Shown here: positions 1 through 26,071 of the stretch, piece by piece | How the letters are laid out: each line of letters begins with the position of its first letter | Position numbering within the stretch: the stretch's first letter is position 1 | Notes under the pieces: model-generated | What the model saw: only the letters and a program-made list of their open reading frames with translations | Told to the model about the DNA's origin: nothing | The model's database searches: none | DNA from: Terramyces sp. JEL0728 | Taxonomy: Eukaryota; Chytridiomycota; Chytridiomycetes; Rhizophydiales; Terramycetaceae | Direction: 5' to 3' | DNA: 26,196 bases | Assembly: GCA_027603945.1 (NCBI GenBank) | Contig: JADIIU010000160.1 | Location: 1 to 26,196, forward strand | Made by a program: the position numbers and the translations under genes

Positions 1-865
1 ACCAATCATCACACAACGAGGTCCTAGCCCGTTCAAGCAGAGACGACGGAACCCGGTTTCCTTGGCCAAGTTCCATAATCTGGAAGTGATAGATCCGCTA
101 CCGCCAGCACCTTCCTTGTTAATCATGGACAAGAGAGTATCAGCTGGGTGAGAAATAATAGCGGCTGCAACACCAGCAATAACACCAGATGCCATGTTAA
201 CCACAAAGTTGGTTGAAGACTTTGCAGTTTTTTGATTGATTCCAGTGAATTTGTAAATATTTTCAGCTGTATATCCTTGGACAGCAAATTTAGCCATAGT
301 ATACGGAATTTGCTTGAACAAAATTGGACCAAATCCAGAGTAGAAGCCTTTGATAACACCGTCTTGAGCAATGATTTTAGGGAAAGCACTGGCTAATCCA
401 GAAGCAAATCCAGGGTTGGACACCAAACGAATACGAGTAGCTTCAAGCGGACACAGGAAAATATCTGCAATAAATTCTGCACAAGCAGCTGCACCCAAGT
501 ATATTGGCAAACGCATTTGCCATGCCTTTTCATCTCCCAAAGACTGAGCAGCTTTTACCTTAAAGAATTCGACACCGCCAAATTTGAACCATCCTTGTAC
601 AAAGTAGCCAACAGCGGTTGGACCAAAACCAGTTGCTAAAGCAGCAACACCTTCCTTTGCGATAATTTGGCGGAATCCAGTAATCATACCTTTGTTGTAT
701 ACAGTAGGTTCTAATTGAATACGGGTTTTAACAACATCAACCGGGGTCAATGCACCGTGGGTTACACCACAGCAGATACCTCCAGCTAAAGCCCCTTTAG
801 TGAAATAAGCGAGGGTGAATGGTCCTTGTTCCTAACTTTAAATATATGATTACGTGCTTGCCCAT
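1..865 (-). CDS. MIR1: Mitochondrial phosphate carrier (MIR1/PiC type), 3' end beyond the window
   Basis: SLC25-family carrier that imports phosphate across the mitochondrial inner membrane. Exon 1 is 865-854, encoding only MGKH; a 22-nt intron at 832-853 (gt..ag) joins it in frame to EQGPFTLAYF; exon 2 runs from 831 off the left edge. Three carrier signatures are visible: PVDVVKTRIQ in repeat 1 followed by the MIR1-type block LEPTVYNKGM, PLEATRIRL in repeat 2, and PADTLLSMI in repeat 3. The short N-terminus before the first membrane helix resembles yeast Mir1. An in-frame ATG at 952 with a strong context (ACCATGG) would add 29 residues; I prefer 865 because the extra stretch crosses a T-rich run and has no family resemblance. 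The C-terminus lies outside the window. Divergent from BMT2. Confidence 0.93.
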
Positions 866-1023
866 TTCAATGTTAAGATGAGAAAAAAAAATCTTTTTAT
901 ACCCGTCAAGAACGTGGAGTTGTGGAGGTGGAATTACTGGTAACAAACCCATGGTGCCATTGAACGTGGATAAAAGCAATAAAGAATTTGGACATTAACA
1001 CGAATGAGGAGAGTGATTTTTTT

Positions 1024-1814
1024 ATGAAAAAAAAAGTAAAGCAACCCATCACCCAGAGAAAACCCATTAAAGATACACAGAAATTGATTTCGAAATTTCA
1101 TACGCTGAACAAGCAGCTATCGCAGTCAAAGAAGCAGGGAGATGCCGAGTCAACTGAGAAAATCAACAAAGAAATTCACGAATTGGGTGGATTGGATACA
1201 TACCAGCGAGCATCGTTGAAAGGCGGGAGTATGGATAAAGGGTATTTTAAGCTTGATTTAGATGGGGCTCGGCTGGAAAGTGGCTAGTGGATAAATTGAA
1301 GCAATTTAAACTGGTCAAAGCAAACTTACGGATGCTGGATGTTGGAGCGATATCCGGAGAGGTATACGTAAAGTACAACTTTATCAAAGCAACTTCAATT
1401 GATTTGAATTCCCAATCGCCACTGGTAATTAAACAGGATTTCTTTCTGCGACCAGTACCAACGACTGACCAGGACAAATTTGATATTGTTTGTTTATCAC
1501 TGGTGATAAATTTTGTTCCAGAAGCCGCGGATAGGGGAAGAATGTTAAAATTGGTAGCGCAGCATCTGGTGGAAAACGGATTGTTTTATCTGGTGCTACC
1601 TCTTCCATGCGTGGTAAATTCGCGTTATTGCACCAACGATCACTTGAAGGAAATGCTCTTTTCCCTAGGATACACGCTGGTCGTTGAACACCATTCAAAG
1701 AAGCTCGCATACTATTTATTCAGACTAAATGGAGAGCCTACTGAACAAACATTTAAAAAGGTAGAGCTTGCTCCTGGTCCAGCTCGAAATAATTTCTGCA
1801 TAACAATGACATAA
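1024..1814 (+). CDS. BMT2: 25S rRNA adenine-N(1) methyltransferase Bmt2
   Basis: Rossmann-fold SAM-dependent methyltransferase; the yeast family member makes m1A in helix 65 of 25S rRNA in the nucleolus. Exons are 1024-1241 and 1262-1814, separated by a 20-nt intron at 1242-1261; the product is 256 aa. Family blocks in order: basic N-terminus MKKKVKQPITQRK, LGGLDTYQRASLKGG, KWLVDKL, the SAM-binding segment MLDVGAISG, IDLNSQSP, QDFFLRPVP, FDIVCLSLVINFVP, LVLPLPCVVNSRY, SLGYTLV and the terminal FKK..APGPARNNF. Without splicing the reading frame stops shortly after SMDKG; splicing restores WGSAGKWLVDKL. Start chosen as the first in-frame ATG before the basic tail. Its stop codon lies 15 bp from the convergent carrier gene. 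Confidence 0.93.
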
Positions 1815-1829
1815 TATAATGTATTTGCA

Positions 1830-2735
1830 CTAGCCCACCACCATCTTTTGATGAGAATATTCTTTGGCAAAGACAGATCCCAAGGTAGATTTACCAGCTT
1901 CATACATAGGAAAGAACATTGAGCAAACACAGAACCTAAAATTAACGAAATTTACCACCACACGCTTCTAGCACCTCCTCCGACAAAGAATCCTCGTGTC
2001 CCGCTTTTCTTTAGCAATTCCTTGCCGACTACAAAGATGGACGCACTGGAACTTTTTGTCATGATGTTGGTTTTTATCACGTCAAAAGGTGTTGTTAAAA
2101 ATCCAGCAAGCCCTCCAGAAATACCGCCAAAAATTGTGGATTTAAACGTAGTAATATCATCAGGCTCTTGTCCAATATACGCCTGGTGTTTCTGTTTAAA
2201 AGAGTCGTATGTGGTAAATAGGATAACCATAAAAGGCCAGTCTCTGGCTGTAGTGCTCCAGAAACCTCTAAACAAGCCTTTGAGCCCTTGCTCTCTAACA
2301 ATCATTTTCACCGTCTCCAGTGCTGGGTTTCCATTTCCTATCGATTTTAAATCAACGCCAGACTGCAAACGAGCAGTGACAACTTCTCGTGGGACTTTGA
2401 CTATTGAAGATACTGTGTCGCCAGCGCACGCAGACATTGCAGACGCCAGAGTACTATCAATATTTTTCGTTGAAAGAAACGATTTGCTATATTCGTAAGT
2501 TGACAGCCGTAGTCCACCTTGTGGTGCTGCCAAGAGAAAACTAATCGTGAATCCACGTCCCAGATTTTTCAAGACTATCGGCTGGTGAGTTTGTAGTTGT
2601 GTCTTTAGGGTATCTAAGGGATGCATAATTGCGAACGCAGTTGCTAGTGCGAAGCCGCCCTGCAATTAATATTTTAGATACTGAAACGAAATTTATTCCT
2701 GTTTGTCTCTGCCAATCTGTCTTTTTGAAATCCAT
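1830..2735 (-). CDS. Mitochondrial carrier, S-adenosylmethionine-carrier-like
   Basis: SLC25 mitochondrial carrier of 287 aa. Exons: 2735-2682, 2659-1956, 1935-1830, with introns 2660-2681 (22 nt) and 1936-1955 (20 nt). The spliced protein begins MDFKKTDWQRQTGINFVS, then shows three carrier signatures: HPLDTLKTQLQ, VPREVVTARLQ and TPFDVIKTNIM. Internal blocks GLKGLFRGFWSTTARDWPF and GGISGGLAGFLTTPFDV match the layout of the SAM carrier (Pet8/SAMC) and plant SAMTL-like proteins. The last intron restores the sixth helix, WWFCVCSMFFPMYEAGKS; unspliced, the frame would stop right after WW. The exact substrate is uncertain: SAM transport is an inference from spacing and motif similarity, and another SLC25 substrate is possible. 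The gene is divergent from LEU2 and convergent with BMT2. Confidence 0.85.
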
Positions 2736-2876: not shown

Positions 2877-3999
2877 ATGACAAACCAAAAAAATATTATT
2901 CTGCTACCTGGCGATGGCGTTGGACCAGAGGTTGTTGCTGAAGCACAAAAAGTGCTGAATTTGATTCCTGGACTGGTATTTACCACACATTTAATTGGAG
3001 GATCAGCAATTGATGCTTCTGGTGATCCACTGCCAGACACCACTCTTGAAGCCTGCAGAAAAGCAGATGCGATACTATTGGGTGCTGTAGGTGGTCCGCA
3101 ATGGCCTAGACCTGCTACAAAAGAAAATCCAACTCCTGCCCGACCAGAGCAAGGGTTGCTCAAAATTCGCAAAGAACTAGATCTATTTGCAAATATTAGA
3201 CCTTGTTTCTTCCCTGGAACAACCCTGATTGATCACTCTCCCCTTCGTCCTGAAGTTGTTAAAGATGTAAAGTTTACAGTTGTCCGGGAATTGACCAGTG
3301 GTATTTATTTCGGAGACCGTACTGAAGAAAAGGATGGAATTGGTAAGCTGTGTCCTAATTTTAGCTCACGATGTAATGACTTATACCGTAGAAGAAGTCC
3401 AAAGAATTACCAGGGTTGCTGCCAACCTTGCCATGTTGCAAACCCCGCCATCACCAATCACTTCAATTGATAAGGCAAATGTGTTGGCAACATCAAGATT
3501 ATGGAGACGTGTAGTCACCGAAACTCTTGAAAAAGAATTCCCTCAAATCCCATTGTACCATAATCTAGTGGATTCGGCTGCTATGCACATGGTAATGAAT
3601 CCTCGCAAACTCAACGGAATTGTACTGACTGAAAATATGTTTGGTGATATCTTGTCTGATGAATCATCTGTGATTCCTGGCAGTTTGGGGCTGCTTCCAA
3701 GTGCGAGCTTGAACGGTTGGGGTGAAGCCAGTTTGGGATTGTACGAACCAATTCACGGCTCAGCACCAGATATTGCAGGACAGGGAATTGCAAACCCTAT
3801 CGGGACTATACTTAGTGCGGCGATGCTTCTTGAATGCTCACTTAACATGAAGAAGGAAGCTAGAGCTTTGGAAGAAGCTGTTGCCCATGTAATTGATGTA
3901 CAAAAGCTACGAACTAAAGACCTTGGCGGTGCTGCTACCACTTCGCAAGTCGGAGATGCAGTTGTTGCAGTGTTCAAACAAAAACTATCTCAAATATAA
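2877..3999 (+). CDS. LEU2: 3-isopropylmalate dehydrogenase
   Basis: NAD-dependent oxidative decarboxylation of 3-isopropylmalate, the third committed step of leucine synthesis. Exons 2877-3342 and 3365-3999 flank a 22-nt intron at 3343-3364; the protein is 366 aa, the usual family length. Recognisable blocks: [11 protein letters not shown] at the N-terminus, [41 protein letters not shown], then after the splice [40 protein letters not shown], the metal-binding region [20 protein letters not shown] and the cofactor loop [17 protein letters not shown]. Without splicing the frame runs into a wrong reading after [11 protein letters not shown]. The stop codon is 21 bp from the convergent VPS9 stop. 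Confidence 0.97.
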
Positions 4000-4020: not shown

Positions 4021-5223
4021 TTATTTCTTTTTTTGCAATTCAATTTCTTCATCAAACGATTCTTCAAACATTGGCGGTTTCTGTTGATTTTCAGATAGCG
4101 ACATTGCGATTGCCAAATCCAACTCGTATCTTTCACGATCAACATATTCGCGCTCCCTTCTCTCTGTTTCCTTGGCAGTAGGAGAGGGAAGATCCGGAGC
4201 GCCAAAGCTATTTGGAGTAAACACTTGCTCTTTTGGTGAAGTTGGATTCGAATTCATTAAATCGTCTGCGGTGCTCTTTACTTCCTTTATAAATGACCCA
4301 AAAAAATCCGTTACTTGAGAAGAAAATTGAGCAAATTCTTCCTTTGCGGATGCTGCAAATTTGTTTAGATTTGGTTCGCTCTCTTTTGTTTCTCCAGACC
4401 TATCGTTAGGATTTTTCAACCACTCAGATCGCTCTTGTTCAGAAAGAGTTAGAGACTTGTGAGACATGTTGTAAATAAATGACAGCGCACCCATCATATT
4501 CGTCATGCAATATTGGTTGTTTCCTTTTTCCATTTCTTGCGCGTTACGATATCTTGTAATATATTTAATATTGCTAATCAAATTTGGTGGATTTGCTCGA
4601 ACGATAACCAAAATCAGTGTCGGTAGGAGGGAATCGTTGTTGGACGTTTCGTTGTTTCCCCATTTCTTGATCAAATCTACATCAGAGCTGAATTACCAAC
4701 AATAATTTGCATTACGTTATGCAGAACAATCAGCTTGTCTCTTGGTGCTTTGTATCCGTTGATCCTCAAAAGCTCTGCTTGTGCAACCTCTAATGAAAGC
4801 GAAAAGTTGATTTTCAAGTCCAAGTGTCGTTCATCAATCCATGAAAAATTCTTGATTTGCTTTGATAGCAAAGCATTGGAACGATGTTCATCGGTGGTTG
4901 GAGCGCCAAACACCAAATCAAACACCTTTGCCATCACCAACTGGATTAATCATTTGTAACCTTTTCCCACCCTTCCCTTACATTTTCCTCATCAAAAGCC
5001 TGGTCTCCTTTGTCAATGAATGCCAAGTGATCCTGAGAATCCCCAAGTATTCCAGCCAAGAACTTTGCAATCAACTTTCTTTGCAACTGTAGCGTCTTTG
5101 CTTCCCGTTCAAACTGCACCAGAAAACTATATTAGTTCCACTATACTTTTTTAACTTTAGTTTCAACGGAGCTCCTTCTTTGCTCCTGAGCTGTGTGATA
5201 AACTTTTCATAATCAACCGGCAT
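4021..5223 (-). CDS. VPS9: VPS9-domain Rab5 (Vps21) guanine nucleotide exchange factor with C-terminal UIM
   Basis: Exchange factor for Rab5/Vps21 in endosomal and vacuolar sorting. Four exons (5223-5147, 5126-4961, 4940-4697, 4676-4021) are separated by three 20-nt introns at 5127-5146, 4941-4960 and 4677-4696; the product is 380 aa. The helical bundle preceding the domain starts DYEKFITQLRSKEG; then REGWEKLVMAKVFDLVFG, FSWIDERHLDL and KAPRDKLIVLHNVM lead into the catalytic core DSLLPTLILVIVRANPPNL (Asp about residue 177) and QYCMTNMMGALSFI (Tyr about 218), the positions equivalent to the Rabex-5 catalytic Asp and Tyr. Residues about 343-359 (ERYELDLAIAMSLSENQ) fit a ubiquitin-interacting motif; yeast Vps9 instead carries a CUE domain there. 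The final 20 residues are acidic then lysine-rich. Confidence 0.9.
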
Positions 5224-5251: not shown

Positions 5252-6328
5252 ATGCAACTCGCACTCGTAACTGGCGCAAACGGATCGGTAGGCAAAGGAA
5301 TTTGCCAGCAACTCATCGAGACTTTTTCAGATATCCATTTGATCCTTGCATGCAGATCCCTCAAGAATGCTGAATTGGTAATTATTTCTAAACCAGACCA
5401 AACAGCAGTTATTGGACGAATTTGAAATCTACCCGAATCAAATCACTTGCATGCAATGCGATCTTTCCGATACAAATAGTGTATTCAATTTGGTCCAGAA
5501 AGTTAAAGATCGATTCGTGGTGTTGGATTATTTGTTCCTAAACGCAGGGATCCTTCCTGTCGAACGAATTGATTTATTTGAAGGAGTAAAAACACTTATC
5601 ACAGACCCTGGATACGTTGCAAGAACTGGTGGGGATATTATTGTTCAAGAAGTTGGACAGACAACTGCCCAAGGCTTGGGCCAAGTATTTGCTGCCAATG
5701 TCTTTGGTCATTATATCCTTGTCAAGGAATTTACCGACTTGCTAGCTGCCTCCGGCGCTGGCAAAATCATTTGGTGCTCTTCAACTACAGCCTCGGAAAC
5801 TTCATTCTTTAGTCCAGAGGATTTTCAATGTCTCGAAGGGTGCGTAATTTAAGTGTAATATTAGTCAAAAGCCATACGAATCATCAAAACGGCTGTGCGA
5901 ATTGATTAGTATTGGCATCAATGCCGAACTAAGAGAACGAAATGTCTATTCTTTCATTACATCGCCTGGAAATGTTTTATCAGGAATTACAAGGGGAGCC
6001 ATCAACGAATTTATGTTTCTTATTGCGTTAATGATCGTAACAGAATTTAATTTAGATGCGCATCTTGTTCTGCTCTGGAATAAATATAACTGGATATAAC
6101 GCAGCAACATCTGCCCTATGGATCGCCAAATCTGAGCCTGAAAGAATCAATCCAAACGTTTTGTATCACAGTGAAATCAATATCCTTGCTCAGCGCTGGG
6201 TCCGTTCAATTGAATTGAAATATGATAAAGTGGACGATGTCTCAACCAAAAAAGTCCTCCGCAAGATGAATTTGCTGTACGGCACTTACAAGCAGGAATG
6301 GATAAACAAAAAACACATTGTTCAATAA
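5252..6328 (+). CDS. ERG27: 3-keto-steroid reductase (sterol C-4 demethylation)
   Basis: Short-chain dehydrogenase that reduces the 3-keto group during removal of the sterol C-4 methyls (Erg25/Erg26/Erg27 complex at the ER). Exons: 5252-5377, 5397-5839, 5865-6036, 6056-6328; introns are 19, 25 and 19 nt; the protein is 337 aa. Motifs: TGANGSVGKG (residues 7-16) for NADPH, LACRSLKNAE, DYLFLNAGILPV, QVFAANVFGHYIL, IIWCSSTTA with the active-site Ser, and YESSK (194-198). Later blocks SPGNVLSGITRG and TGYNAATSALW match Erg27/HSD17B7. The second intron can also be read as 5844-5871 (28 nt), which stays in frame and replaces GQK with GC; the 25-nt form keeps the family spacing before PYESSK. An upstream in-frame ATG at 5222 would overlap the VPS9 start codon. 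Confidence 0.92.
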
Positions 6329-8040: not shown

Positions 8041-9583
8041 TGTCAATAAAGAGTGAAAGAATGAAAGATTACTACCGTGCTGCCGCAGGTGCGGTGGGGT
8101 TGGTCAGTGCAATTTGTTGGTACTTTAGAAACGATGCCGTAGGAACAAAAAGGATTGATTCCAAAGTTCAAAGGTTGCTCAGAATTAATAATAGGGCCAA
8201 ATCGCACTTGCCGGTTGTTGGAACTACCTTTTCCTTTTTGTCAAATATAGGCAGAATGTCTGAATACGTAACCGAAGAAGTTTTGGATCCTGATTACTCT
8301 GGTGCCAAAGTGTTCAGCAACCTGTTCATGGAACCCCTCATCATTATCAACGACCCGGAAAGCTTGGAATACGTAATGAACTCGAATTTTGACAATTATG
8401 TCAAAGGGCCATTGTGGGGCAAACGAGTATCTGAATTCCTGGGACATGGAATCTTCAATTCTGATGGACAAGATTGGTACATGCAGCGAAAGCTGGCTTC
8501 AAAGATTTTCACTGCCAGGGCATTCAAATCCAATATTGAAACTGTATTCGCTGATAATATCCAAACCTTTTTGCAAGTTATCAAAGACAGGGACGGACAA
8601 GCTGTGGATCTGCACGATTTGTTCCATAGATTCTTTATGGACTCGTTTGGAGAAATCGCATTCGGCGTAATACTTTACTTATGGTAGATTGAAATCCAGA
8701 GCTTGACCAAAGACAAAGTTCCGTTTGCCCAAGCATTTGACCGCATCCAAAAAGTAACCAGCGAAAGATTCTTTAATCCATTCTTCAATTTGACTGACAA
8801 GTTCATTTATCCCAATTTCAACGAGGACATTAAATTAATTCGTGAATTTGGATTGCAAGTTATCAATGACAGGAGAAAGGAAGAGAATTTACAGAGGAAT
8901 GATTTATTATCCTTGTTTATGAACTATGAAAACGAAGATGGAAGTAAGCTTACCGACGATCAATTGATTGACCATGTGCTGAATTTCTTGATTGCTGGAA
9001 GAGACACTACTGCACAAGGACTAAGTTGGACATTTTATTCCTTGTTTACTAATCCGCAAACGTTAGAATCATTGCAAAATGAAATTAATGCCAGTCTTCA
9101 GGATGAAATGGTGCCTAATTACGATACTGTAAAAAAGATGAAGTATGCGAATGCAGTTTTCAAAGAATGTAATATCTTTTTAATGCAGCCCTTCGTTTGT
9201 ATCCGTCTGTATCTCGAGAGGCAAAGTTAGCAGTCAGTAACGATACACTACCAAACGGGACACCGGTACCAGCGGGAACAGCGATTGGGTTCTTGCCCTA
9301 CGCTTTTGGTAGGAACAGTAAGATCTGGAGTGATCCATTGGAATTCCAACCAGAAAGATGGCTAACTGGCAAGCAACCAACGCAATATGAATATCCATCA
9401 TTCAACTGCGGGCCACGCATTTGTTTGGGAAAGACATTGGCAGAGATCCAAGGTGTTTTTGTTTTAGTCTGCATTCTCAAACGCTTCCACTTTACCATTG
9501 AAAATTTAGACAAGATTGTACCTGGCTGTAGTCTGACTTTTCCAATGAAACACGGGATGCAAGTCCGATTCCATGATAAATAA
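8040..9583 (+). CDS. Cytochrome P450, array copy 1
   Basis: Microsomal heme monooxygenase, 500 aa. Exons: 8040-8666, 8688-9168, 9189-9583; introns are 21 and 20 nt. An N-terminal membrane anchor (AAAGAVGLVSAICWYF) precedes a globular P450. I-helix AGRDTTAQ, K-helix ESLR (ExxR) formed across the second intron, PERW motif in FQPERW, and heme loop FNCGPRICLGK with the thiolate Cys about residue 448. The segment RLYPSVSRE and overall blocks resemble the CYP52/CYP86/CYP704 fatty-acid and alkane omega-hydroxylases; substrate is inferred only. The first intron, after MDSFGEIAFG, is at the site shared by all five copies; the second is private to this copy. This copy is the most divergent of the array. 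ATG 8040 was preferred to ATG 8061. The stop codon overlaps an AATAAA at 9579-9584. Confidence 0.93.
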
Positions 9584-9720: not shown

Positions 9721-11277
9721 ATGACCTCAAACTGGAAAGAAAAGATGAAAGATTACTATATGGTTGGCGCGGCTGCTGTTGGAGTGGCATCGGCGTTATA
9801 TTGGTACTACAAAGATGATGCGATTGGTTCAACTGTAAAAGTAGATAAAAGCGTCAAAAGGTAATACTATTTTGATGGTAGAACTAGTTTTCATCGTCCT
9901 ATTGTCGGGGTACTATTTGGGATCTTGAAAGATATGGATCAGTAAAACCACGTTTATCTTAGATCAACTCCAAGAATTGCAAATGAATTATTGGCGCCAG
10001 ATTTTGAAAATGCCAAAACCATATCAATACCATTTAGCGAGCCTTATATTTTCGTCAATGATCCTGAAAGCGTAGAGTACGTAACTAGCACAAATTTCGA
10101 CAATTATGTAAAGGGAAGGTTTACGAAATGCAGGATGACTGATGTATTGGGTAATGGTATTTTCAACACTGATGGACACGATTGGTATGTACAGCGAAAG
10201 CTGGCTTCAAAAGTGTTCACCAACAAGAATTTCAAGACAAATATCGATACCGTATTCACCGACAATATCAATATCCTGCTTAAAGTTTTGAATGAATATG
10301 GGACTGAGAGTAAATCCATTGATATGCACAATATTTTCCACAGATATTTTATGGACTCTTTTGGAAAGATTGCCTATGGGGTACACTGATTTTAATCTTA
10401 GATTGACTTGCAAAGTTTGGAAAAAGGAAGTGCAGCCTTTGTAGCTTCATTCGATCGTGCTCAAAATGCAATGGGAGACCGGTTTGTTGGTGCGTTTTGG
10501 GTAATTAGCGATAGATTCAATTCTCAACTGCAAAGAGATATCAAATTAATAAGGGGGTTTGGCCGCAAAGTTGTTGAAGATCGTCAGAAACAGGAGACAG
10601 CGAATAATCACGACTTGCTTTCATTATTCATGGAGTATCGAAATGAAGATGGAACTGGTTTGACAAACGACGAATTAGCGGACCATGTCATCAACTTTAT
10701 CCTGGCTGGAAGGGATACGACCGCTCAAGCCTTATCTTGGTGTTTATTCTGTCTGCATCAAAATCCTAAAGTAAAAGAACAAGTATTCAAGGAAATTGAC
10801 GAGTCGCTTGGAGACGATTTGATTCCAAAATACGAGCAAATCAAGAAAATGAAATATATCAATGCCGTCTTTAAGGAAACTCTTCGTTTATATCCATCAG
10901 TTCCAAGGGAAGGCAAAAGCGCAATCAATGACGATATTCTTCCAAATGGAACCAAAATTCCTAAAGGTGCAATAGTTTCCTGGCTACCTTATGCAATGGG
11001 CAGATCGAGCAATATCTGGGAATCTCCAGAAGAATTCAAGCCTGAAAGATGGTTATCTGGAAAACATCCAACCCAGTACGAATTCCCTTCGTTTAATTGC
11101 GGACCAAGAATATGCTTGGGCAAGTCGCTAGCAGAAATTCAGGGTGTGTTTGCTTTGGTTTCCATTTTGCGCCAGTTTGATTTCAATGTTGAAAACCCTG
11201 GCCAGGTGACAATGAAGCAAAGTTTAACTCTTCCAATGAAGTATGGATTAACTTGTAGTATTGCTCACAGGTGCTAA
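9721..11277 (+). CDS. Cytochrome P450, array copy 2
   Basis: Paralogue of its neighbours, 497 aa. Four exons (9721-9860, 9882-9941, 9963-10380, 10402-11277) are separated by three 21-nt introns at 9861-9881, 9942-9962 and 10381-10401. Each intron contains an in-frame stop, so the gene looks truncated unless spliced. Two introns near the N-terminus are private to this copy and enclose a 60-nt exon encoding TSFHRPIVGVLFGILKDMD; the third is at the shared site after MDSFGKIAYG. N-terminal anchor MVGAAAVGVASALYWYY, I-helix AGRDTTAQ, KETLRLYPSVPREGK, PERW, and heme loop FNCGPRICLGK with the Cys about residue 444. Likely an ER-bound fatty-acid-hydroxylase-like enzyme. AATAAA begins 3 nt after the stop. 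Confidence 0.93.
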
Positions 11278-14833: not shown

Positions 14834-14850
14834 TTGTGGTTCCATCTGGT

Positions 14851-16340
14851 ATGCAAGATTCATGGTTTCAAACGGCTAAAGCATGCACGGTGATTGCAGT
14901 CGCAGGAGGGATATTTTATTGGTATTACAAAGATGATGCAATTGGGTCAATAAAAGTGGACCAGAGTATTCCACGAACATCCTTCCATCTCCCGATCGTC
15001 GGAAGCCTATTTGCATTGATTAGGGATATGGACAATTCAATAGATTTGATTTCGCAAGAGTTGAATTCGCCAGATTTCGATAAAGCGGTGGTGGTTTCTG
15101 TTCCGTTCTCAGAGCCGAGGATAATGATTCATGATCCAGCTAGCATAGAATATATCACAAACACCAACTTTGACAACTATGTTAAGGGAAGTTTTACACA
15201 TTCACGAATGGCCGATGTTCTAGGGAGAGGGATTTTCAATTCTGATGGGGTTCACTGGTATATGCAAAGAAAATTGACTGCCAAGATTATGACTAGTAGG
15301 AATTTCAAGTTATTTATCGACACAGTGTTTACAGATAATATTGAAATCTTGCTAGCAGTCCTGAGTTCGTTTGCGTGTAACGGAACCCCAGTGGATATGC
15401 ACGATATGCTTCTACGATATTTTATGGACTCGTTTGGAAAGATTGCTTATGGGGTACATGGTATTGACGATAGGTAGACATCAAAAGCTTGGTTGAACCA
15501 ACTCCAAAATACGTCGCAGCATTTGACAGGACGCAGAATACAATTGGAAATAGATTTATCAATCCTCTTTTTAGGATTACGGATAAATTCAAATCTCACT
15601 TGAAAGAGGACATTCAAATGATTAGGGATTTTGGAAACAAGGTTGTAAGTGAAAGAAAGGATAAGAAAGGCAATAGTGATCTGCTGTCGTTGTTTATGGA
15701 CCACAGAAATGAAGACGGCAGTGAATTGACAACTGAAGAATTGGCAGACCATGTAATCAGCTTCATCTTGGCAGGGAGGGATTCTACAACCCAGGCACTA
15801 TGTTGGACTTTGTACTGTCTCTCAAACAATTCGAATGTTACAAAGAAACTCTTGCAAGAGATTGACGAAATACTGGGTGGCCAATTGCTTCCAACTTATG
15901 AACAAATCAAGCAGATGAAATACGCCAATGCTGTATTCAAAGAAACGTTGCGGTTATATCCATCAGTCCCAAGAGAAGGCAAAGTAGCTGCCAATGACGA
16001 TACACTACCAAATGGCGTCAAGGTCCCTAAAGGAGCTATCGTTACTTTTTATCCATATGCGATGGGAAGATCAGATAAACTCTGGGAACATGCCAACGAA
16101 TATAAACCCGAACGATGGTTGAATACCAAACAGCCTTCTCAGTATAAATATACAGCATTTATGTGTGGCCCTCGGTCTTGTTTGGGGAAGGCTTTGGCAG
16201 AAATTCAAGGAGTTTTCACCTTGGTCTCTATTCTGAAAAGCTTTTCTGTTACGATAATCGATCCTTCTTTGGTGACGAAATTCATGTCGCTTACTTTGCC
16301 AATGAAGAACGGTCTATTGTGTCAATTGAAAAAGAAATAA
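14851..16340 (+). CDS. Cytochrome P450, array copy 5
   Basis: 489-aa P450, last of the array. Exons 14851-15453 and 15474-16340; one 20-nt intron (15454-15473) at the shared site. Here the acceptor is followed by GTAGAC, so the junction reads GVDIKSLV; a second AG 4 nt downstream would shift the frame. Anchor ACTVIAVAGGIFYWYY. The I-helix reads AGRDSTTQ, the K-helix KETLRLYPSVPREGK, then YKPERW and heme loop FMCGPRSCLGKALAE with the Cys about residue 437; the Ser before the heme Cys replaces the Ile of the other copies, a possible active-site difference. The stop codon overlaps AATAAA at 16336-16341. Probably an ER monooxygenase of the same CYP52/86/704-like type; substrate unknown. Confidence 0.93.
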
Positions 16341-16551: not shown

Positions 16552-18208
16552 ATGTCTAAACCACTTTTGAAACCGCCAGCTTTAAACACAGAGCCTATCC
16601 CTCTGGTGCAGACAGAACACCGTTACAAACAATATATCAACGCAGACGAAATCCTGACTCAAAGTCCTGGCCAGCCAATTCCACAACGAGATCAGCCAAT
16701 TCCACCAATTCCCTCATCACACGAACTTTCACTAATACATCAAGAATTGAAGCGGCTGCTTGATGCAACATCTAATAGACAATTAAATTATTCAAAAAAC
16801 CAGGAGGTGATAACAAATTGGATCCACAAACATGACCCTAATGGCACTGTGAATATGGAAAATATCGACAGCAAACAACAGAAATTCAAATTAAAAATTA
16901 AAAAGGATTCGTTTAGAGCCGATACAGGTAATTTAAAAGATAATTTAGACGAGCCAGACTCCAACGAGTAATTTTTATTAACAGAAAGGAAAGACGGATT
17001 ATTGGCAAGCATCGATGATGGAGGAAATAGAGTGTCTATATCAAATAATGGAAATATAAAGTTCACAGCTCCTAGTGAAAAGGGAGGAAAGAACCTTCAA
17101 GGCTTCAAACCAGTCAACAAAGTAATTCTTTTTAACCAAGCTCATAACAAAGAAAGATAACAAAATCAAAAAGAGATCAATGAGCGAGAGGGATCAACTG
17201 AGTATTCGATCTACTCCTGATCCTGAGGCACCTGGTGAAGGTGACTATTCAAAGGCCAAAGTAATACTTTAGTAATACCAGGTTCAACAAAACCAAATAC
17301 CTATTGCTACTTTCTGGACATTTGCGGAGCAGTATTTGAGGCCAATGACCTACGACGACCTAGCACTGCTGGAAAACAATGTAGCTTCACATTAACCAAA
17401 GGGCGATGAGATTACGCCGTTCATGCTGCCACCAACTGGTAAAAATTATACACTCCAATGGCAAGATGAAGATGAACGGCTGCTGGCGCTTTTCGAAGAA
17501 GGTGTGCCGAACCCAAGTTTAGCTTCTAATAGAGAATATGTGGAAATGGAAGATACTGTCTATGAAGGCGATATCCACGTGGGCACACTTTCAGAAAAAC
17601 TGATGTGTTCGTTAGTACGGGAAGGAATCGTTCCAGATAAAATGGATGATGACGAAGAAATGAATGCGATTGTAAAGAGTGTGCCCAGACCGCGCACTAA
17701 AACTGATCTATTTCTGTTTGAAGAGAGGCTGAGAGCAGAGTTGAAACACATTGGCTTGATTCAGGATGAAGAAATACATAAAGATGACAACGAGATCACG
17801 GCATTGCTACAGCGAACACAGACACATCTAAAGGAGCAAATCTCTGTTAATTCTTCACGCAAAAAGCGGCTACTTGAAATTGCCAAGCAATACATGGGCT
17901 ACCAAGAGTACAACACCTTCTTGGACGACATTAACAAGAATGTTGAACAAGCATATATCCGTCGCTTTGTAATTGCCATTAACCTAGAAATCCAATCCAA
18001 AGAAAGGAAAGAAAAAGACAATTAAAGAAATGGGGCCGCTATCCGAAACTGTAATTCAAATGCTAGAAAACCGTAAACGCATGATCCACCAGGTAAGTTG
18101 CCTTAATATTAGGTTGGCAAAAAGTACTTTTCTCCAGAGAAATTTGATTTGCCGACATCTTCAATCTTTTATTCCTATGAAGATTACGATCAAGAAATGG
18201 ACGAATAA
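16552..18208 (+). CDS. NGG1: SAGA/ADA complex subunit Ngg1 (Ada3)
   Basis: Linker subunit of the Gcn5 histone acetyltransferase module in SAGA. Seven exons: 16552-16967, 16989-17121, 17141-17260, 17282-17380, 17402-17968, 17988-18092, 18113-18208; six introns of 19-21 nt; 511 aa. The N-terminus is low complexity, with IPLVQTEHRYKQY and proline repeats. The middle carries the Ada3 block QIPIATFWTFAEQYLRPMT and MLPPTGKNYTLQW. The C-terminal Ada3 domain (about 358-445) shows FLFEERLRAELKHIGLI, DDNEITALL, VNSSRKKRLLEIAKQYMGYQEY and NVEQAYIRR, then a lysine-rich stretch KKGKKKTIKE and a final block LSETVIQMLENRKRMI. Three of the introns are 21 nt and each holds an in-frame stop. Three introns end in AAG, unusual in this window. 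No separate promoter motif was found. Confidence 0.92.
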
Positions 18209-19003: not shown

Positions 19004-20586
19004 TTACAAGGTGTTTTCTCTTTGATTCCATCTGTAACTCTCATCCTTGAGTGGTTGTGTGTTTGACTGGGATGCCAAGGAAGCAAGTTCCATCATGTAA
19101 CCGGAACCATTATTAGATTGAATTTGTCCTGGTTGCGCGGTGTACTGATTGCTATTCATATATGGTTGCTGGATTGGGTAGTTCATTCCATATTGAACTT
19201 GGTTGGATTGTATATTACTTGGGATGTTAGATTGGACAGAAGGCTGTTCACCACTAGGAATATACTGCGACGAGTTTCCTCCTTGCATATCAATGTGGGT
19301 TCTTTCGTGCTTCCTTAAAGATCTGGAGTGGAAATATGCTTTTGTGCATGGTGGGAAAGAGCAGACATATGGCTTCACACTTGAGTGGGTCTACATTAGT
19401 TTTTTGTCACCTTTATATGTGTATTCAAGCCATCTTGTCTAGAGAATTTTTTGCCACAGTCAGCAACAGGGCAGGCGAATGGACGTTCACCAGTGTGTAT
19501 ACGAACGTGGTTTTGAATCTTGTGTCTTTTTGTGAATGGCTTCAACTGACGACTACAGCCTCTCCATTCGCAAACATAACTGGCTTTACCAGTACCAACA
19601 TGGTCTTGAAGAATATGCTGGACCAACATGTCCTGAGTATGTAGTTCCATGGTGCAAGTTCCCCAGCTGCACTGAGTTAATACAGCGGCGCCATCTGTAG
19701 GAGACAATTCTGTTGTTAATTGATGTTTACCTTGGCCATAATCTTGATCCCCATAGTACATTTTGTTCAAAGGAGAGACCTGATGTATATGTGAGTTGTA
19801 CCCACCCATTTGATTTCTATCATATGAATCATGTCTCTCATGCGATATTAATGGCTGTCCAACCCGGCTATCGTAGGAATCATGACGTTCATGGCCCATC
19901 ATTCCGGAATCATAGGATTCATGTCTGTCGTGTGAAATTAATTGAGAGCTATCGAATGAATCATGCGAACCAGGCTGTGAATTCATGTCGTAAGAAGGTT
20001 GCCGTTCATGTCCGAGAGGTCGGCTATCATATACCCTTGCTTCTTGCATCAATGGATGCAAGGGTCTGAATCCTGGACGATGTTGTGCCTGGGGAGGCTG
20101 GAGTTTGCTTTGCTCCAACTGCATCCCAACAAATTCATCAAACATTGTAGAAGTTCCAGAATAATTCTTTTTATGTTCAGGGGGATATTGTGTTGGGTAA
20201 GGCATATAAGCTGGGTTGTGTGCATTGTTCACGTATGGCGGTGAGTGCAAATGCGGTGAAGATGGGGTCGAATAACTCTGATAGTGCTGTTGTTGCATTT
20301 GCGGTTGCTGATAATTCCCCATCCCGGTCATCGAATGAAAGCGACGGTGTTTCTGGACGTCCTCAGGGTGCTGCTGTTGAGGCGGGTGGAATTCATCGGG
20401 TTGAGTTAGTGAAGAATTTCTCTTGTGCATTGGTTTTGCTTGCTGAGCTGGCGGTTGTGTGTATGAAATTGAGACTGATTTACGATGTCCCAGTCTCTTT
20501 GTACGCATTACATTGGGCTCTGAAGGCAGCTGTCCGTATAACTGGTCTGAATATAGTTTGTCTAACAAGTCATCTTGGTTGGACAT
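19004..20586 (-). CDS. C2H2 zinc-finger transcription factor with tandem CWCH2 fingers
   Basis: 520 aa; exons 20586-19411 and 19390-19004 with a 20-nt intron at 19391-19410 splitting finger 3 between its two His. Four fingers occupy about 306-424: CSWGTC..HILQDH, CEWRGC..HVRIH, CPVADC..HIKTH and CSFPPC..HERTH. The first two have Trp between the cysteines, the tandem CWCH2 signature of Zic, Gli, Glis, PacC/Rim101 and Zap1; KPFTKRHKIQNHVRIHTGERPF links fingers 2 and 3 as in Gli/Zic. The N-terminal 300 residues are disordered, with Gln, Pro and His runs and a degenerate repeat (about 190-260) built on HERHDSYDS. The C-terminus is Gln/Asn/Ser-rich. Likely a nuclear DNA-binding regulator; its target and exact orthology are unknown. 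The ATG at 20586 is the first in frame. Confidence 0.85.
19830..20025 (-). repeat. Degenerate coding repeat, unit around HERHDSYDS
   Basis: Within the zinc-finger gene, five to six imperfect copies encode variants such as GHERQPSYD, ISHDRHESYDS, GHERHDSYDS and ISHERHDSYDR. On the plus strand the DNA shows recurring tcatgacgttcatg- and gaatcatg-like blocks. This indicates in-frame expansion of a short acidic-basic unit. Confidence 0.7.
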
Positions 20587-21242: not shown

Positions 21243-23183
21243 TTAATCATCACCTTCCAAGAAAAAGTAATTTCCACTCAACTTTTGTTCTTTATCTTTG
21301 ACTGACTCAAACTTATTAATACGCGGTCTAAAGTTGGTTGGATCTCTTCTAAAGGTAATCTCTAATTCTTTCAAGAAAGTGTTCATACCAGTCAAGAGAG
21401 ATTCAGGGCTATGGTTAGATGGTATTTACCAGTTTGCTGTGGCTTTCACAGCTGGAGTGCCGTCGTATACAATAACTCTATCTGCCAAGTAAGTAGCCAT
21501 GATGAAATCGTGCTCGACGATGAATGCAGTCTTCTTGGAGTGCATGATAAACTTTTTGATCACCTTGGCAGCAATGATACGCTGCTCAGAGTCCAAATAA
21601 GCAGAAGGCTCATCAATCAAATAAATATCAGCAGGTTTGCCAAGAGCAAGCACAATAGCAACTCTTTGCAATTCACCACCAGACAAGGTTTTTACCGGCT
21701 GATCAATGATGTTTTCAATTTGCAATGGCTTGACGACATCGCTCTGGAATTGCTGGTCCAAGAATGCACCCTTGATATTCTTTAGCAACAACATACGAAC
21801 GGTTCCTTCGAACTTTGGGGCAATCTTTTGTGGTTTGAGCGAAACACGTAATTCAGGAACCTGTGCTTCAGTATCTGCCTGTGTAATGCCAGCCAACAAT
21901 CGAATGAATGTTGTTTTACCAGTACCGTTCTGCCCCAACATGACAATGATTTCAGAGTCAGTGAAGGTGCCAGACTTTACGTCCAGGGTAAAGTTCCCTT
22001 GAGTTTTGGTCATTGCTGGATATTCATATTTTCTGTCCTTGTTGGCAAGGTAATCATCAGCAGTTTCAGCCAGTCTGAAAGTGAGAGATTCATCACGGAA
22101 ACGCAAGTTTTCAGTTGGGATTTTGCCATCCAAGAAGATATTGATGCCTTCCCTAACAGAGAAGGGCAAAGTAACAACACCGTATGCACTAGGCATGCCG
22201 TACAGAACACACACAAAGTCAGAGAGGTAATCCAAGACCGACAAATCGTGTTCTACTACAATAACATAGGCGGTTGCGTGTAATAGGGAACGGATCACCT
22301 TGGCAGCATTCAAACGCTGCTTGACATCCAAATAGGAGGAAGGTTCATCAAACATATAGCTAAAATTATAAAAATTTTACATGTCTGCTTTTTGACAGGC
22401 GGTTAAGCCAATGGCAAATCTCTGCAATTCTCCACCAGAAAGAACGCCGATTTCACGATCCATAACATGTTTAAGTTCTATATTAATTAATTAGCACCCA
22501 AAATATCCAATAAAAAGTCCATATTTCCATTGTCGTATTTGGCATTGAGCAAAGTAGCAACTTCACCCTTTGCGGCTCTGGGAAGGTTATCAACATATTG
22601 TGGTTTGATGATTGCCTTCAAGTTATCCTCGAGGATCTTTGTGAAATAGTTTTGTAATTCAGACCCGCGGAAATATTTCAAGATTTCTTCCCAATCTGGA
22701 GGATCCTAACGAATTAATTCTATTCTATAATAATCGCAATTGCAATCTAGTTACATACCGCAAATCTTCCCAAATTTGGTTTTTGTTTTCCAGCCAAAAT
22801 CTTTAAAGCCGTGGATTTTCCAATACCGTTGGTGCCTACTAAGCCTAGCACTTGTCCTGGTCTAGGGACAGGTAAACGGTGCAGTTTGAAAGAGTTTGCA
22901 GAGTATCTGTGAGTAGTTTCCTTTTCCAAGTTGGTTGGTAAATTGATAATTGAAATGGCTTCGAATGGACATTTCTTTACACAGATACCACAACCGATAC
23001 ACAATTCTTCAGAGATATAAGCGATTTTGTCGTTTGGAGACACTTCGATACATAATTTCCCTGATGTCAATACAAAGTACCCATTCGAACGACTGGACAT
23101 CCCTTTTTGCATTCTTGGCGACATTTTTTAGGTTTACATTTGTCTGTGCTGACGATTGCGATACGAGTTAACTTGTCAGACAT
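21243..23183 (-). CDS. RLI1: ABCE1/RLI1 ribosome recycling ATPase
   Basis: Essential Fe-S ABC ATPase that splits post-termination ribosomes. Six exons: 23183-23081, 23060-22759, 22705-22498, 22477-22381, 22359-21430, 21408-21243; introns of 20, 53, 20, 21 and 21 nt; 601 aa, near the yeast length of 608. N-terminal cysteine region: [24 protein letters not shown] and the ferredoxin-type [15 protein letters not shown]1: Walker [10 protein letters not shown] (about 110-118), signature [11 protein letters not shown], Walker [14 protein letters not shown]2: [31 protein letters not shown], then [19 protein letters not shown] and the terminal [23 protein letters not shown]. The intron at 22706-22758 is the only long one in the window and begins GTATGT. 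Divergent from IRC21 with 61 bp between starts. Confidence 0.96.
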
Positions 23184-23853: not shown

Positions 23854-24218
23854 TAAATCTGCACATTCTAATTATTTATTGTCCGACACTGTCAACCAAT
23901 AAAATATCTTCCAAGCCACAAGAGTATAAAGCGTGAAAACGAGGAGAAAAACCTTGAGTTTTCACAAGCAGCTTTATGAAGTCAAATTACTACTGCCTCA
24001 GTTAATGGGTATGTGGTGCTAGAGTTGTTTAAGACTAAATGGCTATGCTTATAGCGCGAACATGTTAGTAGAATAGGGTGGCCTAATTATTAGTGTGTTC
24101 GGCAACGGCCTACATTTTAGAATATTTCTCTTTGTACTTGAGACAAGTATTGTATCCAATTATGTGATTTCTTGTAAAGCTACTGTCTTTCTAAAGAATT
24201 ACTAGAGATTTATTGAAA
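23854..24218. other. 365-bp convergent spacer, possible non-coding RNA
   Basis: Both flanking genes end here, so no promoter is required, yet the spacer is far longer than the other convergent ones (2, 15, 21 and 58 bp). It contains a TATA-like gtataaag near 23923 and, just downstream, an inverted repeat GTGAAAAC (23933-23940) and GTTTTCAC (23958-23965) with a 17-nt loop. I found no tRNA features, snRNA core sequence or clear snoRNA boxes. Its content is unknown. Confidence 0.35.
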
Positions 24219-26071
24219 TTAATAAGCAGATGCTTGACCATGCTTTCTTTCATCGCCAGCAGCAAGCACCAAGCCAGAGGAGAGTCTCTTTAACGAAGAA
24301 ACGCACGAAGTATACACACCAGGCTCGAGTTTCTTTATCTCATGCCCTCTTTCAATCAATCCGGCTTCGACGTCACCAGGGATGTAGGATTCAATTTCGA
24401 CTTTGTCAGGTAACAGTTGATGGTGCACCCGAGGTGCCATCACAGCATCGTATGGCGAGCTGTCTAAATCAATCATTCTTATAATGGACTGGACAGTTGA
24501 AGTGGTAATGTGTGATCCACCACTGGCACCACTGACTACAAATACTTTTCCATTCTTTTCAATGATTACTGGCGCTGACGAAGATTGAGGTCTCTTTCCT
24601 GGATGCACGTAGTTGTATGGTGATGGTGCTAATCCAAAAGAGTTGCTTACTCCAGGGATAGAAAAATCATCCTGGAATTAAGTTACGAGTACCATTTCAT
24701 CATTCAATACAATGCCAGTTACTGGATCAACAACTTTTGAACCAAACAATAGATTAACGGTGGAGGTCAAAGCAGCAGCATCTCCCTCCTTGCCTAAAAT
24801 AGACATGTGCATCTGTATTAAAAACACTTACTGTGCCGTGATTACCGGTATTCTCAAACTGCGGCTGGTAATATTCAACAGGAAATGTTTTGGACTATGT
24901 TAAAATAAAGTACATCGTCAATCTTTTCGAACAGCTCTTTTCCATTTTGCTTGCTGCTGAAATATTTGGCAATACTTGTAATATTTCGGTAAATGGGCTA
25001 ATATTAACTACTAGTACATCGATAGGGTCGCCATAGAAACCGCGTTCTGCATAGCCATGCTTCAGCGCTTCAACTAGGCGATGAGTATTCAAAGGATCTA
25101 GTTTATCAAACGCGCTGTAATTTTCAATAGTGTTCAAGACAGAGAGCAATACCGCACCGCTAGCAGGCGGCGGTGCACTTATTACCTTTAACCCTCTATA
25201 ACTACCAACCAACGGACGAGTTTCTTTTGCTCGATAGTTTCGTAAATCCTCAAGAGTTAAAATGCCTCCTGTTCTATTAACTGTCTTTATCAATTCATCT
25301 GCAATCCAACCGTTGTAAAACACATCCGCACCTTCTTCAGCAATAGATTCCAATGTTTTCGCATACTCTGGTCTCTTTAGCCAATCGCCGTCCACAAGCA
25401 ACTTTCCATTTGGAGCAAGCAGTTTTTGCAAAATGGGATCTTTTGCAATTTCATCTTTGGTGCTCTTTGTTTTGGCTTCAAACGCTTTGTTTACCCTAAA
25501 TCCATCTCTTGCGATTGTAATTGAAGGCTCAAACAATCGCTTCCAAGGTAATTTACCAAACTTTTTGTGTGCTTGTTCCAATCCACGCAGCTCTCCTGGA
25601 ACTGCTACTGACAACCCTCCCAGTTGAGCAGACATTGGGTCCTTTATAAACATATTTGTGGTTGCTGCTGCTGGTGCTTCTTCTCTGAAATCAAATACAG
25701 TGGTTTCGCCATCAGCACCTCTGTGGACCATAAATCCACCACCTCCAATACCGGAAGCATAAAAGTTGACTGTTCCGATACAAATACATGTCGCTACTGC
25801 TGAATCTACTGCTGATCCACCGTCCTTTAAAACGTTTACTCCGATATCAGAGCACAGCTCGTGCTCAGTTGCAACAGCGCCGTTGTATCCTCTTGCTGCC
25901 TGTTAAATATCTGTACCTTCAGAAGTTTTTTTGTAGGTTGAGAAGCTGGTGAACAGAACTAAGTTAATTGGAATTACCAAAAAAGACTGCTGCGAATGTT
26001 AGAAATTGGATCCGTCTTTTGTTGAATCTTGGCATATGCTGTGTGTGTTTCACTTCCATAGATTTTTCCAT
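24219..26071 (-). CDS. GGT1: Gamma-glutamyltransferase (glutathione hydrolase)
   Basis: Type II membrane ectoenzyme that removes the gamma-glutamyl group of glutathione and self-cleaves into two chains. Seven exons: 26071-25978, 25958-25917, 25895-25018, 24997-24914, 24894-24832, 24812-24693, 24671-24219; six introns of 19-21 nt; 577 aa. Basic N-terminus then a signal anchor IQFLTFAAVFFVLFTSFSTY (21-40). Blocks: ARGYNGAVATEHELCSDIG, GGSAVDSAVAT, SGIGGGGFMV, LGGLSVAVPGELRGLE, SAPPPASGAVLL, HRLVEALKHGYAERGFYGDP, the processing site HGT-MHMS with catalytic Thr about residue 387, LTSTVNLLFGSKV, LNDEMDDFSIPGV, HPGKRPQSSSAP and VSGASGGSHITT. The intron at 24813-24831 falls exactly after the catalytic Thr codon. 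Two introns of 21 nt contain in-frame stops. AATAAA follows the stop closely. Confidence 0.95.

Follow-up and report, generated by a model that had tools for sequence, protein, structure and literature searches.

Probable U2-type spliceosomal introns, nearly all of 19–22 nt, in the chytrid Terramyces sp. JEL0728

Introduction

Typical fungal introns are GT-AG, U2-type and far longer than 20 nt (mean 63 bp in Cryptococcus neoformans and 397 bp in S. cerevisiae, according to excerpts of PMC8476143). In a 26,196-nt stretch of the Terramyces sp. JEL0728 genome (the window), however, genes appear to be interrupted almost exclusively by GT-AG segments of about 20 nt. Are these spliceosomal introns, and does their removal call for an unusual spliceosome? 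Judged from the sequence, they are probably (about 0.88) true spliceosomal introns of the U2 type in the nuclear genome, nearly all 19–22 nt long and removed by a largely standard spliceosome.

Introns of the window

Scripted re-derivation, in which the script asserted the intron ends, reproduced exactly the tally of the original prediction: 37 introns, seven of 19 nt, fourteen of 20, eleven of 21, three of 22, one of 25 and one of 53 nt, with GT-AG ends in 37/37 and a GTA start in 33/37. An automatic gene finder also predicted 30 of them. The remaining seven belong to genes, or to a first exon, that the finder missed, and all seven are in the list of frame-joining introns. The introns and the evidence for each are as follows.

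832..853, minus: 22 nt, mitochondrial carrier (frame joining, gene finder)
1242..1261, plus: 20 nt, Bmt2-like methyltransferase (frame joining, Pfam)
1936..1955, minus: 20 nt, mitochondrial carrier (frame joining, family search)
2660..2681, minus: 22 nt, mitochondrial carrier (frame joining, family search)
3343..3364, plus: 22 nt, LEU2-like 3-isopropylmalate dehydrogenase (gene finder)
4677..4696, minus: 20 nt, VPS9-domain gene (gene finder)
4941..4960, minus: 20 nt, GTT donor, VPS9-domain gene (gene finder)
5127..5146, minus: 20 nt, VPS9-domain gene (gene finder)
5378..5396, plus: 19 nt, short-chain dehydrogenase (frame joining, Pfam)
5840..5864 (or 28 nt, 5844-5871), plus: 25 nt, GTG donor, short-chain dehydrogenase (frame joining)
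6037..6055, plus: 19 nt, short-chain dehydrogenase (frame joining)
8667..8687, plus: 21 nt, P450 copy a, shared site (gene finder)
9169..9188, plus: 20 nt, P450 copy a (gene finder)
9861..9881, plus: 21 nt, P450 copy b (gene finder)
9942..9962, plus: 21 nt, P450 copy b (frame joining, gene finder)
10381..10401, plus: 21 nt, P450 copy b, shared site (gene finder)
12087..12106, plus: 20 nt, P450 copy c, shared site (gene finder)
13847..13866, plus: 20 nt, P450 copy d, shared site (gene finder, homologs ungapped 73/118)
15454..15473, plus: 20 nt, P450 copy e, shared site (gene finder)
16968..16988, plus: 21 nt, Ada3-like gene (gene finder)
17122..17140, plus: 19 nt, Ada3-like gene (gene finder)
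17261..17281, plus: 21 nt, Ada3-like gene (gene finder)
17381..17401, plus: 21 nt, Ada3-like gene (gene finder)
17969..17987, plus: 19 nt, Ada3-like gene (gene finder)
18093..18112, plus: 20 nt, Ada3-like gene (gene finder)
19391..19410, minus: 20 nt, GTG donor, C2H2 zinc-finger gene (gene finder, family search)
21409..21429, minus: 21 nt, RLI1/ABCE1 (gene finder, homologs ungapped 120/120)
22360..22380, minus: 21 nt, RLI1/ABCE1 (gene finder, homologs ungapped 119/120)
22478..22497, minus: 20 nt, GTG donor, RLI1/ABCE1 (gene finder, homologs ungapped 119/120)
22706..22758, minus: 53 nt, donor GTATGT, RLI1/ABCE1, the only long one (gene finder, homologs 120/120)
23061..23080, minus: 20 nt, RLI1/ABCE1, absent from deposited model P0003 (frame joining, homologs 119/119)
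24672..24692, minus: 21 nt, gamma-glutamyltransferase (GGT; gene finder, homologs ungapped 119/119)
24813..24831, minus: 19 nt, GGT (gene finder, homologs ungapped 112/119)
24895..24913, minus: 19 nt, GGT (gene finder, homologs ungapped 112/119)
24998..25017, minus: 20 nt, GGT (gene finder, homologs ungapped 34/119)
25896..25916, minus: 21 nt, GGT N-terminus, ends uncertain (gene finder; homology unsupportive, 1/35)
25959..25977, minus: 19 nt, GGT N-terminus (gene finder; weak homology, 15/24, mean identity 0.22)

The 25-nt intron is ambiguous, its 28-nt alternative being likewise in frame. Two long introns called by the finder in the window (114 and 185 nt) are false and fuse neighbouring P450 genes. 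One intron site is common to all five tandem P450 copies; at this site intron nt 3–12 have a mean identity of 35% and the flanks 65%, and the length is still 20–21 nt.

Homolog alignments cover 12 of the 37 junctions (best 120 listed homologs per gene; criterion, ungapped within ±6 aa), and support for the other 25 consists of frame joining, splice signals and family matches. Among these best 120 listed homologs, the five RLI1 junctions are ungapped in 119/119, 120/120, 119/120, 119/120 and 120/120, the six GGT junctions in 15/24, 1/35, 34/119, 112/119, 112/119 and 119/119, and that of P450 copy d in 73/118. The claim that every junction joins conserved blocks in frame therefore stands for all five RLI1 junctions, for three of six in GGT and for the P450 junction; a fourth in GGT is partial, and homology does not support the two N-terminal ones. 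After splicing, GGT matches its Pfam family in full (2–512 of 512) at 560.9 bits, against 325.5 bits for the longest open frame. Pfam scores of the spliced Bmt2 and SDR genes are 227.7 versus 196.3 bits and 70.9 versus 48.4 bits, respectively.

The RLI1 protein deposited at NCBI for the same strain (P0003), from a 26,196-nt contig, splices three of the four short RLI1 introns plus the 53-nt intron. The RLI1 matches, at 99% to Terramyces and 97% to Boothiomyces, displaced a yeast identity that LEU2 and the P450 cluster had at first suggested. In three deposited proteins of this strain, short exons were dropped, genes fused or an intron read into. In Boothiomyces, the GGT protein (P0242) is gapped at the 24998–25017 junction and has lost the short exon after it, which suggests mis-modelling of these same tiny introns in that species; its RLI1 is 97% identical. 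We lean towards the view that the pattern is ordinary in this chytrid family and has gone unreported, being common to Boothiomyces and perhaps other Rhizophydiales by ancestry, the fungal DNA examined being that of the Terramyces assembly and Boothiomyces being compared through its proteins. Such a shared origin is compatible with genuine U2-type introns in Terramyces.

Intron lengths beyond the window

We extended the analysis to 226 kb (the window and the first 100 kb of two contigs; ∼1.5% of the 15 Mb assembly), using gene-finder variants with a flat length prior and a length-weighted catalogue that favours 16–25 nt by design. A coding model of order 4, with 40 training ORFs, was too sparse (only 21 introns), and order 2 was used instead. 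With the flat prior, the first round, trained on unspliced ORFs, placed 36 of 85 introns at 19–22 nt, and 86 of 140 fell in this class once the signals had been learned.

As a control, terminal dinucleotides were exchanged under the flat prior in the 226 kb. At 18–23 nt, GT-AG gave 51 introns, and each of 13 other pairs 2–12, with a mild circularity in that the coding model was trained on the spliced genes of an earlier finder round. At 30–100 nt there was no GT-AG excess (17 versus 39–58 for the 13 control pairs). The short-intron excess is confined to GT-AG ends and to lengths of 18–23 nt.

The length-weighted catalogue holds 227 introns in 88 gene models, 65 of which have introns; 211 are of 19–22 nt (47, 94, 47 and 23 in the 19-, 20-, 21- and 22-nt classes). 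The dominance of this class in the window extends to the ∼1.5% sample, in which no substantial longer class was found. The picture of nucleomorph-sized introns in a fungal gene set that includes metabolic genes was borne out in the 200 kb outside the window as well. The exceptions to the short class are the homolog-supported 53-nt intron in RLI1 and a 62-nt intron in Isy1 that is predicted only. The flat-length model had called eight window introns longer than 25 nt, of which five became short under length weighting and three joined neighbouring P450 genes, two of these three persisting as the false long calls named above; two further long calls, one of 54 nt in Slu7 and one of 70 nt in Isy1, likewise gave way to short introns. 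As the length-weighted model prefers short introns, its removal of long calls alone proves nothing, and the dinucleotide control is the unbiased test. In-frame stops were present in 45 of the 47 gene-finder introns of 21 nt; we set this enrichment aside, since the finder would more readily overlook a 21-nt intron that lacks a stop.

Splice signals and splicing components

The layout of the introns is near-fixed, with a GTAATT-like donor, a YTAAY branch motif and a terminal AG. Branch points were scored in 200 of the 216 short introns of the length-weighted catalogue, 16 being dropped for a weak motif. The branch A lies at nt 14–15 in 161 of the 200, and it is followed by 5–6 nt in 173/200 (88 introns with 5 nt, 85 with 6 nt). 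The donor-branch distance is thus ∼13–14 nt. We found GT-AG ends, a U2-complementary branch near the 3′ end and in-frame coding joins, as expected of U2-type introns. A G at +5 is mostly absent from the donors, so U1 would contact mainly GTA(A).

Seven of the nine splicing components sought were found: U2 snRNA (140 bits, carrying GTAGTA), U2AF65, SF1, Prp18, Slu7, Cwc25 and Isy1. U2AF and SF1 had been proposed for a check of possible loss, and U2AF65 and SF1 were both found, as was U2 snRNA; the U2AF65 match (TIGR01642, unspliced search) reaches 251.7 bits, below the model cut-off of 310.3, in a search that also gave weak matches in 2 of 14 prokaryote controls. In six splicing-factor gene models, 16 of 17 introns are of 19–21 nt. 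Alignments to relatives of solved structure cover Cwc25 and Isy1, and the other components were identified by detection alone. The first 14 residues of Cwc25 equal those of PDB 5yzg chain X, which we take to be the human homolog, starting MGGGDLNLKKSWHP with MGGG kept. The glycine-rich plug lost in Stentor is therefore retained in Terramyces.

These observations bear on the possibility that the introns are real but that their removal needs a specially altered spliceosome, for example one with changed branching factors or other lineage-specific changes that avoid a clash with a very tight lariat, as conjectured for Stentor. Splicing in HeLa extract is abolished at a donor-branch distance of 46 nt, and here the distance is ∼13–14 nt. 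The best alignments of Isy1 to 8/8 PDB matches begin only at residue 29–38, and excerpts of PMC9505925 describe a non-conserved Isy1 N-terminus in Stentor; the 5′ gene model of the Terramyces Isy1 is, however, uncertain. RED, which is tied to human short-intron splicing (PMC6692369), gave no RED_N match in the genome, but this search matched no control either, and absence of RED is thus not established. U6 was not found by three genome searches (a covariance model and two pattern searches): the covariance matches, at ∼27 bits, sit in a repeat, and the pattern candidates are coding-like sequence. Against such an alteration stand the seven components present, the conventional Cwc25 tip and the supported 53-nt intron in RLI1. 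We consider it doubtful, and the adapted spliceosome of the original prediction found no clear support. As the components compared look conventional, there is no need to postulate a thoroughly rebuilt machine.

Removal by a non-spliceosomal route (elimination from the DNA at a different life stage, ribosomal bypassing or other RNA processing) would accommodate a donor-branch distance under the in vitro tolerance of the human extract, but we judge it very improbable given the canonical GT-AG ends, the YTAAY motif at near-constant distance, and the presence in the genome of U2 snRNA and of factors for the branch point and the 3′ splice site. The assembly is a draft of 231 contigs with at least one locus present twice, but there is hardly any chance that the frame breaks are sequencing or assembly errors or pseudogenes and the introns artefactual, given the control pairs at 2–12 against 51 for GT-AG, the consensus signals of donor, branch point and acceptor at almost constant intervals, introns in 65/88 gene models and spliced products that match conserved families across their length. 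The dinucleotide controls and the signal geometry led us to reject the error, pseudogene and non-spliceosomal readings.

Comparison with known systems

Introns of comparable size have already been described in nucleomorphs, in heterotrich ciliates and in mikrocytids. The Bigelowiella nucleomorph has more than 800 introns of 18–21 bp in ∼300 genes (PMC10245619, in part), and the chlorarachniophyte likeness lies in similar size and narrow length range; a nucleomorph, however, is a remnant endosymbiont nucleus with few genes, whereas the introns described here belong to a fungus' own 15 Mb genome. Stentor introns, in the sections of PMC9505925 consulted, are of 15–16 nt with the branch A at nt 10–11, occur in 18% of genes and go with a missing Cwc25 plug. 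They resemble those of Terramyces in being uniform, AT-rich and GT-AG, with ∼5 nt after the branch A and conserved snRNA recognition. Terramyces differs in its 19–22 nt, a branch A mostly at nt 14–15, introns in 65/88 models and the plug kept. The 224 predicted introns of Mikrocytos mackini (16–17 nt) are likewise extremely short and highly uniform, but this is an obligate parasite with a spliceosome reduced to 17–19 proteins (PMC10245619, same excerpts).

Paramecium and Nyctotherus have ultra-short introns of ∼25 bp as their sole class, according to parts of PMC5014332. These are ciliates, and their introns are somewhat longer than those of Terramyces. Some microsporidian introns are of 23 nt and more. 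Microsporidia offer short introns in a fungus-related lineage, but they are reduced parasites with few introns, several lineages being intronless (PMC10245619, as excerpted), and Terramyces is intron-rich.

Proposed mechanism and significance

In the proposed explanation, U2-type splicing of ∼20-nt introns, the branch motif would be read by SF1 and U2, and there would be no space for a polypyrimidine tract downstream of the branch point. The product would be a lariat of ∼14 nt with a 5–6 nt tail. The length floor would reflect minimal, sterically set donor-to-branch and branch-to-acceptor distances, and the ceiling may be set by deletion pressure, the genome being compact at 15 Mb.

The standard factors found and the unaltered Cwc25 tip suggest that a near-normal spliceosome can work at about a quarter of the human-extract donor-branch distance. 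Among the open-access matches listed, none reported ∼20-nt introns in chytrids, and other papers, such as the original genome description, may say more. On slightly better than even grounds, Terramyces would be the first case, among fungi other than Microsporidia and among free-living organisms other than ciliates, of an intron-rich nuclear genome in which essentially all introns are ∼20 nt, the branch A lies at nt 14–15 followed by 5–6 nt, and a near-normal spliceosome suffices.

Automatic gene models of tiny-intron genomes go wrong. The size floor of spliceosomal introns, and the changes of the machine that it needs, have so far been studied in difficult ciliates, nucleomorphs and parasites. 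Chytrid transformation exists in Spizellomyces (PMC7213984, in extract). Terramyces is a fungus with many ∼20-nt introns and, as far as compared, conventional splicing factors.

The 37 introns of the window and their host

The window is contig C160 of the Terramyces assembly, apparently whole (assembly size, 15.0 Mb in 231 contigs). A search of NCBI proteins with the RLI1/ABCE1 (RLI1) sequence spliced from it gave matches in both Terramyces sp. JEL0728 (99%, covering 96% of the query) and Boothiomyces (97%, along the full length). Terramyces belongs to the chytrids (Chytridiomycota, Rhizophydiales, Terramycetaceae), so these matches confirm the earlier assignment to the fungi and place the host among the early-diverging, zoosporic ones.

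GT-AG candidates that join reading frames were listed, and gene models were made both by hand and with a gene finder written for the purpose; a script asserted both ends of each of the 37 introns. The lengths (seven of 19 nt, fourteen of 20, eleven of 21, three of 22, one of 25 and one of 53) and the termini (GT-AG in 37/37, GTA at the start of 33/37) were identical to those of the original prediction, which had also counted 37. Two features are referred to by position:

8040-16340: five P450 genes in tandem
22706-22758, minus strand: the 53-nt intron of RLI1

Unaided, the gene finder predicted 30 of the 37 introns; the remaining seven lie in genes, or in a first exon, that it missed, and all seven were among the frame-joining candidates.

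Homolog alignment across junctions covered 12 of the 37 introns (five in RLI1, six in gamma-glutamyltransferase (GGT) and one in P450 copy d). At all five RLI1 junctions, 119 or 120 homologs were gap-free within six residues, with at most one exception each. Three of the six GGT junctions were strong (ungapped in 112/119, 112/119 and 119/119 homologs) and one was partial (34/119), while the two N-terminal ones were unsupported by homologs (ungapped in 15/24, at an identity of 0.22, and in 1/35). The P450 junction was ungapped in 73/118 homologs. Upon splicing, the Pfam match of GGT went from 325.5 bits, partial, to 560.9 bits, full-length; scores rose from 196.3 to 227.7 bits for the Bmt2-like methyltransferase and from 48.4 to 70.9 bits for the short-chain dehydrogenase.

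One intron site is common to all five P450 genes, which we take to be of the yeast CYP52 type. The length of this intron is constant at 20-21 nt in every copy despite a diverged interior (mean identity of 35% over nt 3-12 versus 65% over 120 nt of flanks).

The annotation deposited for this strain contains several of these short introns and misses others. Among the deposited proteins P0003, P0121 and P0241, short exons are dropped, adjoining genes fused or the first exon absent: P0003 (RLI1) lacks the first intron and has the other four spliced, P0241 (GGT) omits a stretch containing two short exons, and P0121 is a fusion of two P450 genes. P0244, a second GGT copy, runs into an intron and then terminates. 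The deposited P450s of the window carry the name 'Protein kinase alk2'.

Intron lengths in a 226-kb sample

Contigs C1 and C2 each contributed their first 100 kb to the sample, to which the window was added, making 226 kb in all (1.5% of the assembly; not random). The first finder run was motif-free, with a three-periodic coding model and a flat intron-length prior of 10-200 nt; its first round gave a length peak at 19-22 nt (36 of 85 introns). With learned signals and the prior still flat, 86 of 140 introns were of 19-22 nt. The motif-free run was redone over 10-100 nt with 13 other terminal dinucleotide pairs as controls, the coding model being trained on the genes of the learned-signal run. 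GT-AG yielded 51 introns of 18-23 nt, compared to 2 to 12 for the control pairs. At 30-100 nt it yielded 17 and the controls 39 to 58; with GT-AG below every control, nothing points to an ordinary class of long introns. A length distribution had been proposed as a check on the original prediction, and the flat-prior peak together with the dinucleotide controls shows that the short class recurs across the sample.

A length-weighted model served for catalogue building only. The catalogue covers 88 gene models, of which 65 bear introns, 227 in total (one intron of 17 nt, 47 of 19, 94 of 20, 47 of 21, 23 of 22, four of 23 and 11 of 25-185 nt). Among the last 11 are the 53-nt intron, which has support, and two that plainly come from fusing genes. 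Extrapolation to the assembly would give about 15,000 introns, an order of magnitude only, as the sample is non-random.

In-frame stops occur in 45 of the 47 predicted 21-nt introns of the sample, compared to a mean of 24.5 in the other frames. This excess could be due to NMD surveillance or detection bias; in Paramecium, in-frame stops in introns are tied to NMD surveillance.

Anatomy of the short introns

Smoothed donor frequencies were A 89% at +3, A 62% at +4, T 53% at +5 and T 57% at +6, with G at +5 in only 18%. The best branch motif was TTAAC, TTAAT, CTAAT or CTAAC in 151 of 216 short introns. Branch position was scored in the 200 with a clear motif, allowing a branch-to-end spacing of 5 to 13. 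The branch adenosine fell on nt 14 in 85 of them, on nt 15 in 76 and on nt 16 in 16; between it and the intron end there remained 5 nt in 88 introns and 6 nt in 85. Its position shifted with intron length: nt 14 for the majority of 19-mers, nt 14 or 15 for 20-mers, nt 15 for the majority of 21-mers and chiefly nt 16 for 22-mers. There is no room downstream of the branch point for a polypyrimidine tract of normal length. T precedes the terminal AG in 63% and C does so in 25%, the 4-6 nt spacer upstream of the branch motif is 39% T, and intron AT content is 70%. The two longer introns that the models retain, the 53-nt one of RLI1 and a predicted 62-nt one of Isy1 (locus L043), have the donor GTATGT, not GTAATT (n = 2).

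Splicing machinery

Seven of the nine splicing components sought were found in the genome. U2 snRNA scored 140 bits and contains GTAGTA. U2AF65 matched TIGR01642 at 251.7 bits, under the cut-off of 310.3 (next match, 57.7), in a search that gave sub-cut-off matches in 2 of 14 prokaryote controls; the match spans four internal stops, and the finder predicts that the gene has four introns, each 19-20 nt long. SF1 is present with its helix-hairpin and KH domains, as are Prp18, Slu7, Cwc25 and Isy1. U2AF65 and SF1, for which a check for loss or change had been proposed, were thus both found (U2AF65 below the family cut-off). Of the 17 introns predicted in the six splicing-factor protein genes, 16 are of 19-21 nt, so these factors seem to rely on short-intron splicing for their own expression.

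The N-terminus of Cwc25, MGGGDLNLKKSWHP, is identical to PDB 5yzg chain X, presumably the human protein. Stentor Cwc25 is described as having no glycine plug (PMC9505925). Cwc25 was detected twice with the same scores, on contigs C30 and C33, and the second GGT copy (P0244, on a 69448-nt contig) matches at 94% over 60%, which suggests that some contigs of the assembly are duplicates or haplotypes.

Alignments of Isy1 to PDB Isy1 sequences begin only at residue 29-38. The 5' gene model (L043, contig C35, minus strand) is uncertain because three intron-like units of 20-21 nt stand head to tail directly after the start codon, 1 and 3 nt apart, implying extreme microexons or alternative joins.

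Three genome searches found no U6 snRNA, perhaps owing to limitations of the searches or of the assembly; two near-identical low-score matches (L026 and L027) belong to repeated sequence and are not plausible U6. A genome search for RED_N, run with no positive control, gave no match.

Minimal introns and a possible mechanism

Short introns also occur in Microsporidia, relatives of fungi, where some measure twenty-odd nucleotides. Introns of 18-21 bp are on record for chlorarachniophyte nucleomorphs; those of heterotrich ciliates measure 15-16 and those of mikrocytids 16-17 (PMC10245619), and those of Paramecium and Nyctotherus about 25 (PMC5014332). The accessible part of a survey of 644 fungal genomes (PMC8476143) does not mention fungal introns of such size, and our literature search for chytrids gave no report of introns this short among the matches listed. 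Minimal introns are thus of a known kind from the nucleomorph, heterotrich and mikrocytid cases; as far as the literature searched reaches, what is new in Terramyces is that the host is a chytrid, that the setting is free-living and intron-rich, and that standard factors are retained.

We observed the intron signals, their spacing, the joining of frames and the presence of seven components. Recognition may proceed by intron definition within one 20-nt unit, with U1 at GTA(A) and SF1/U2 at YTAAY; branching would then span about 13-14 nt, and the AG 5-6 nt downstream of the branch would be chosen as acceptor. In HeLa extract, shortening the donor-branch distance to 46 nt abolishes splicing (PMC6692369); therefore, Terramyces would splice across a distance about one quarter to one third as long. 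A specially adapted splicing machine, as originally suggested, is a serious rival, which we consider possible, though rather unlikely. We favour the reading that these are ordinary introns at a steric floor, to which deletion in a compact genome would have driven them.
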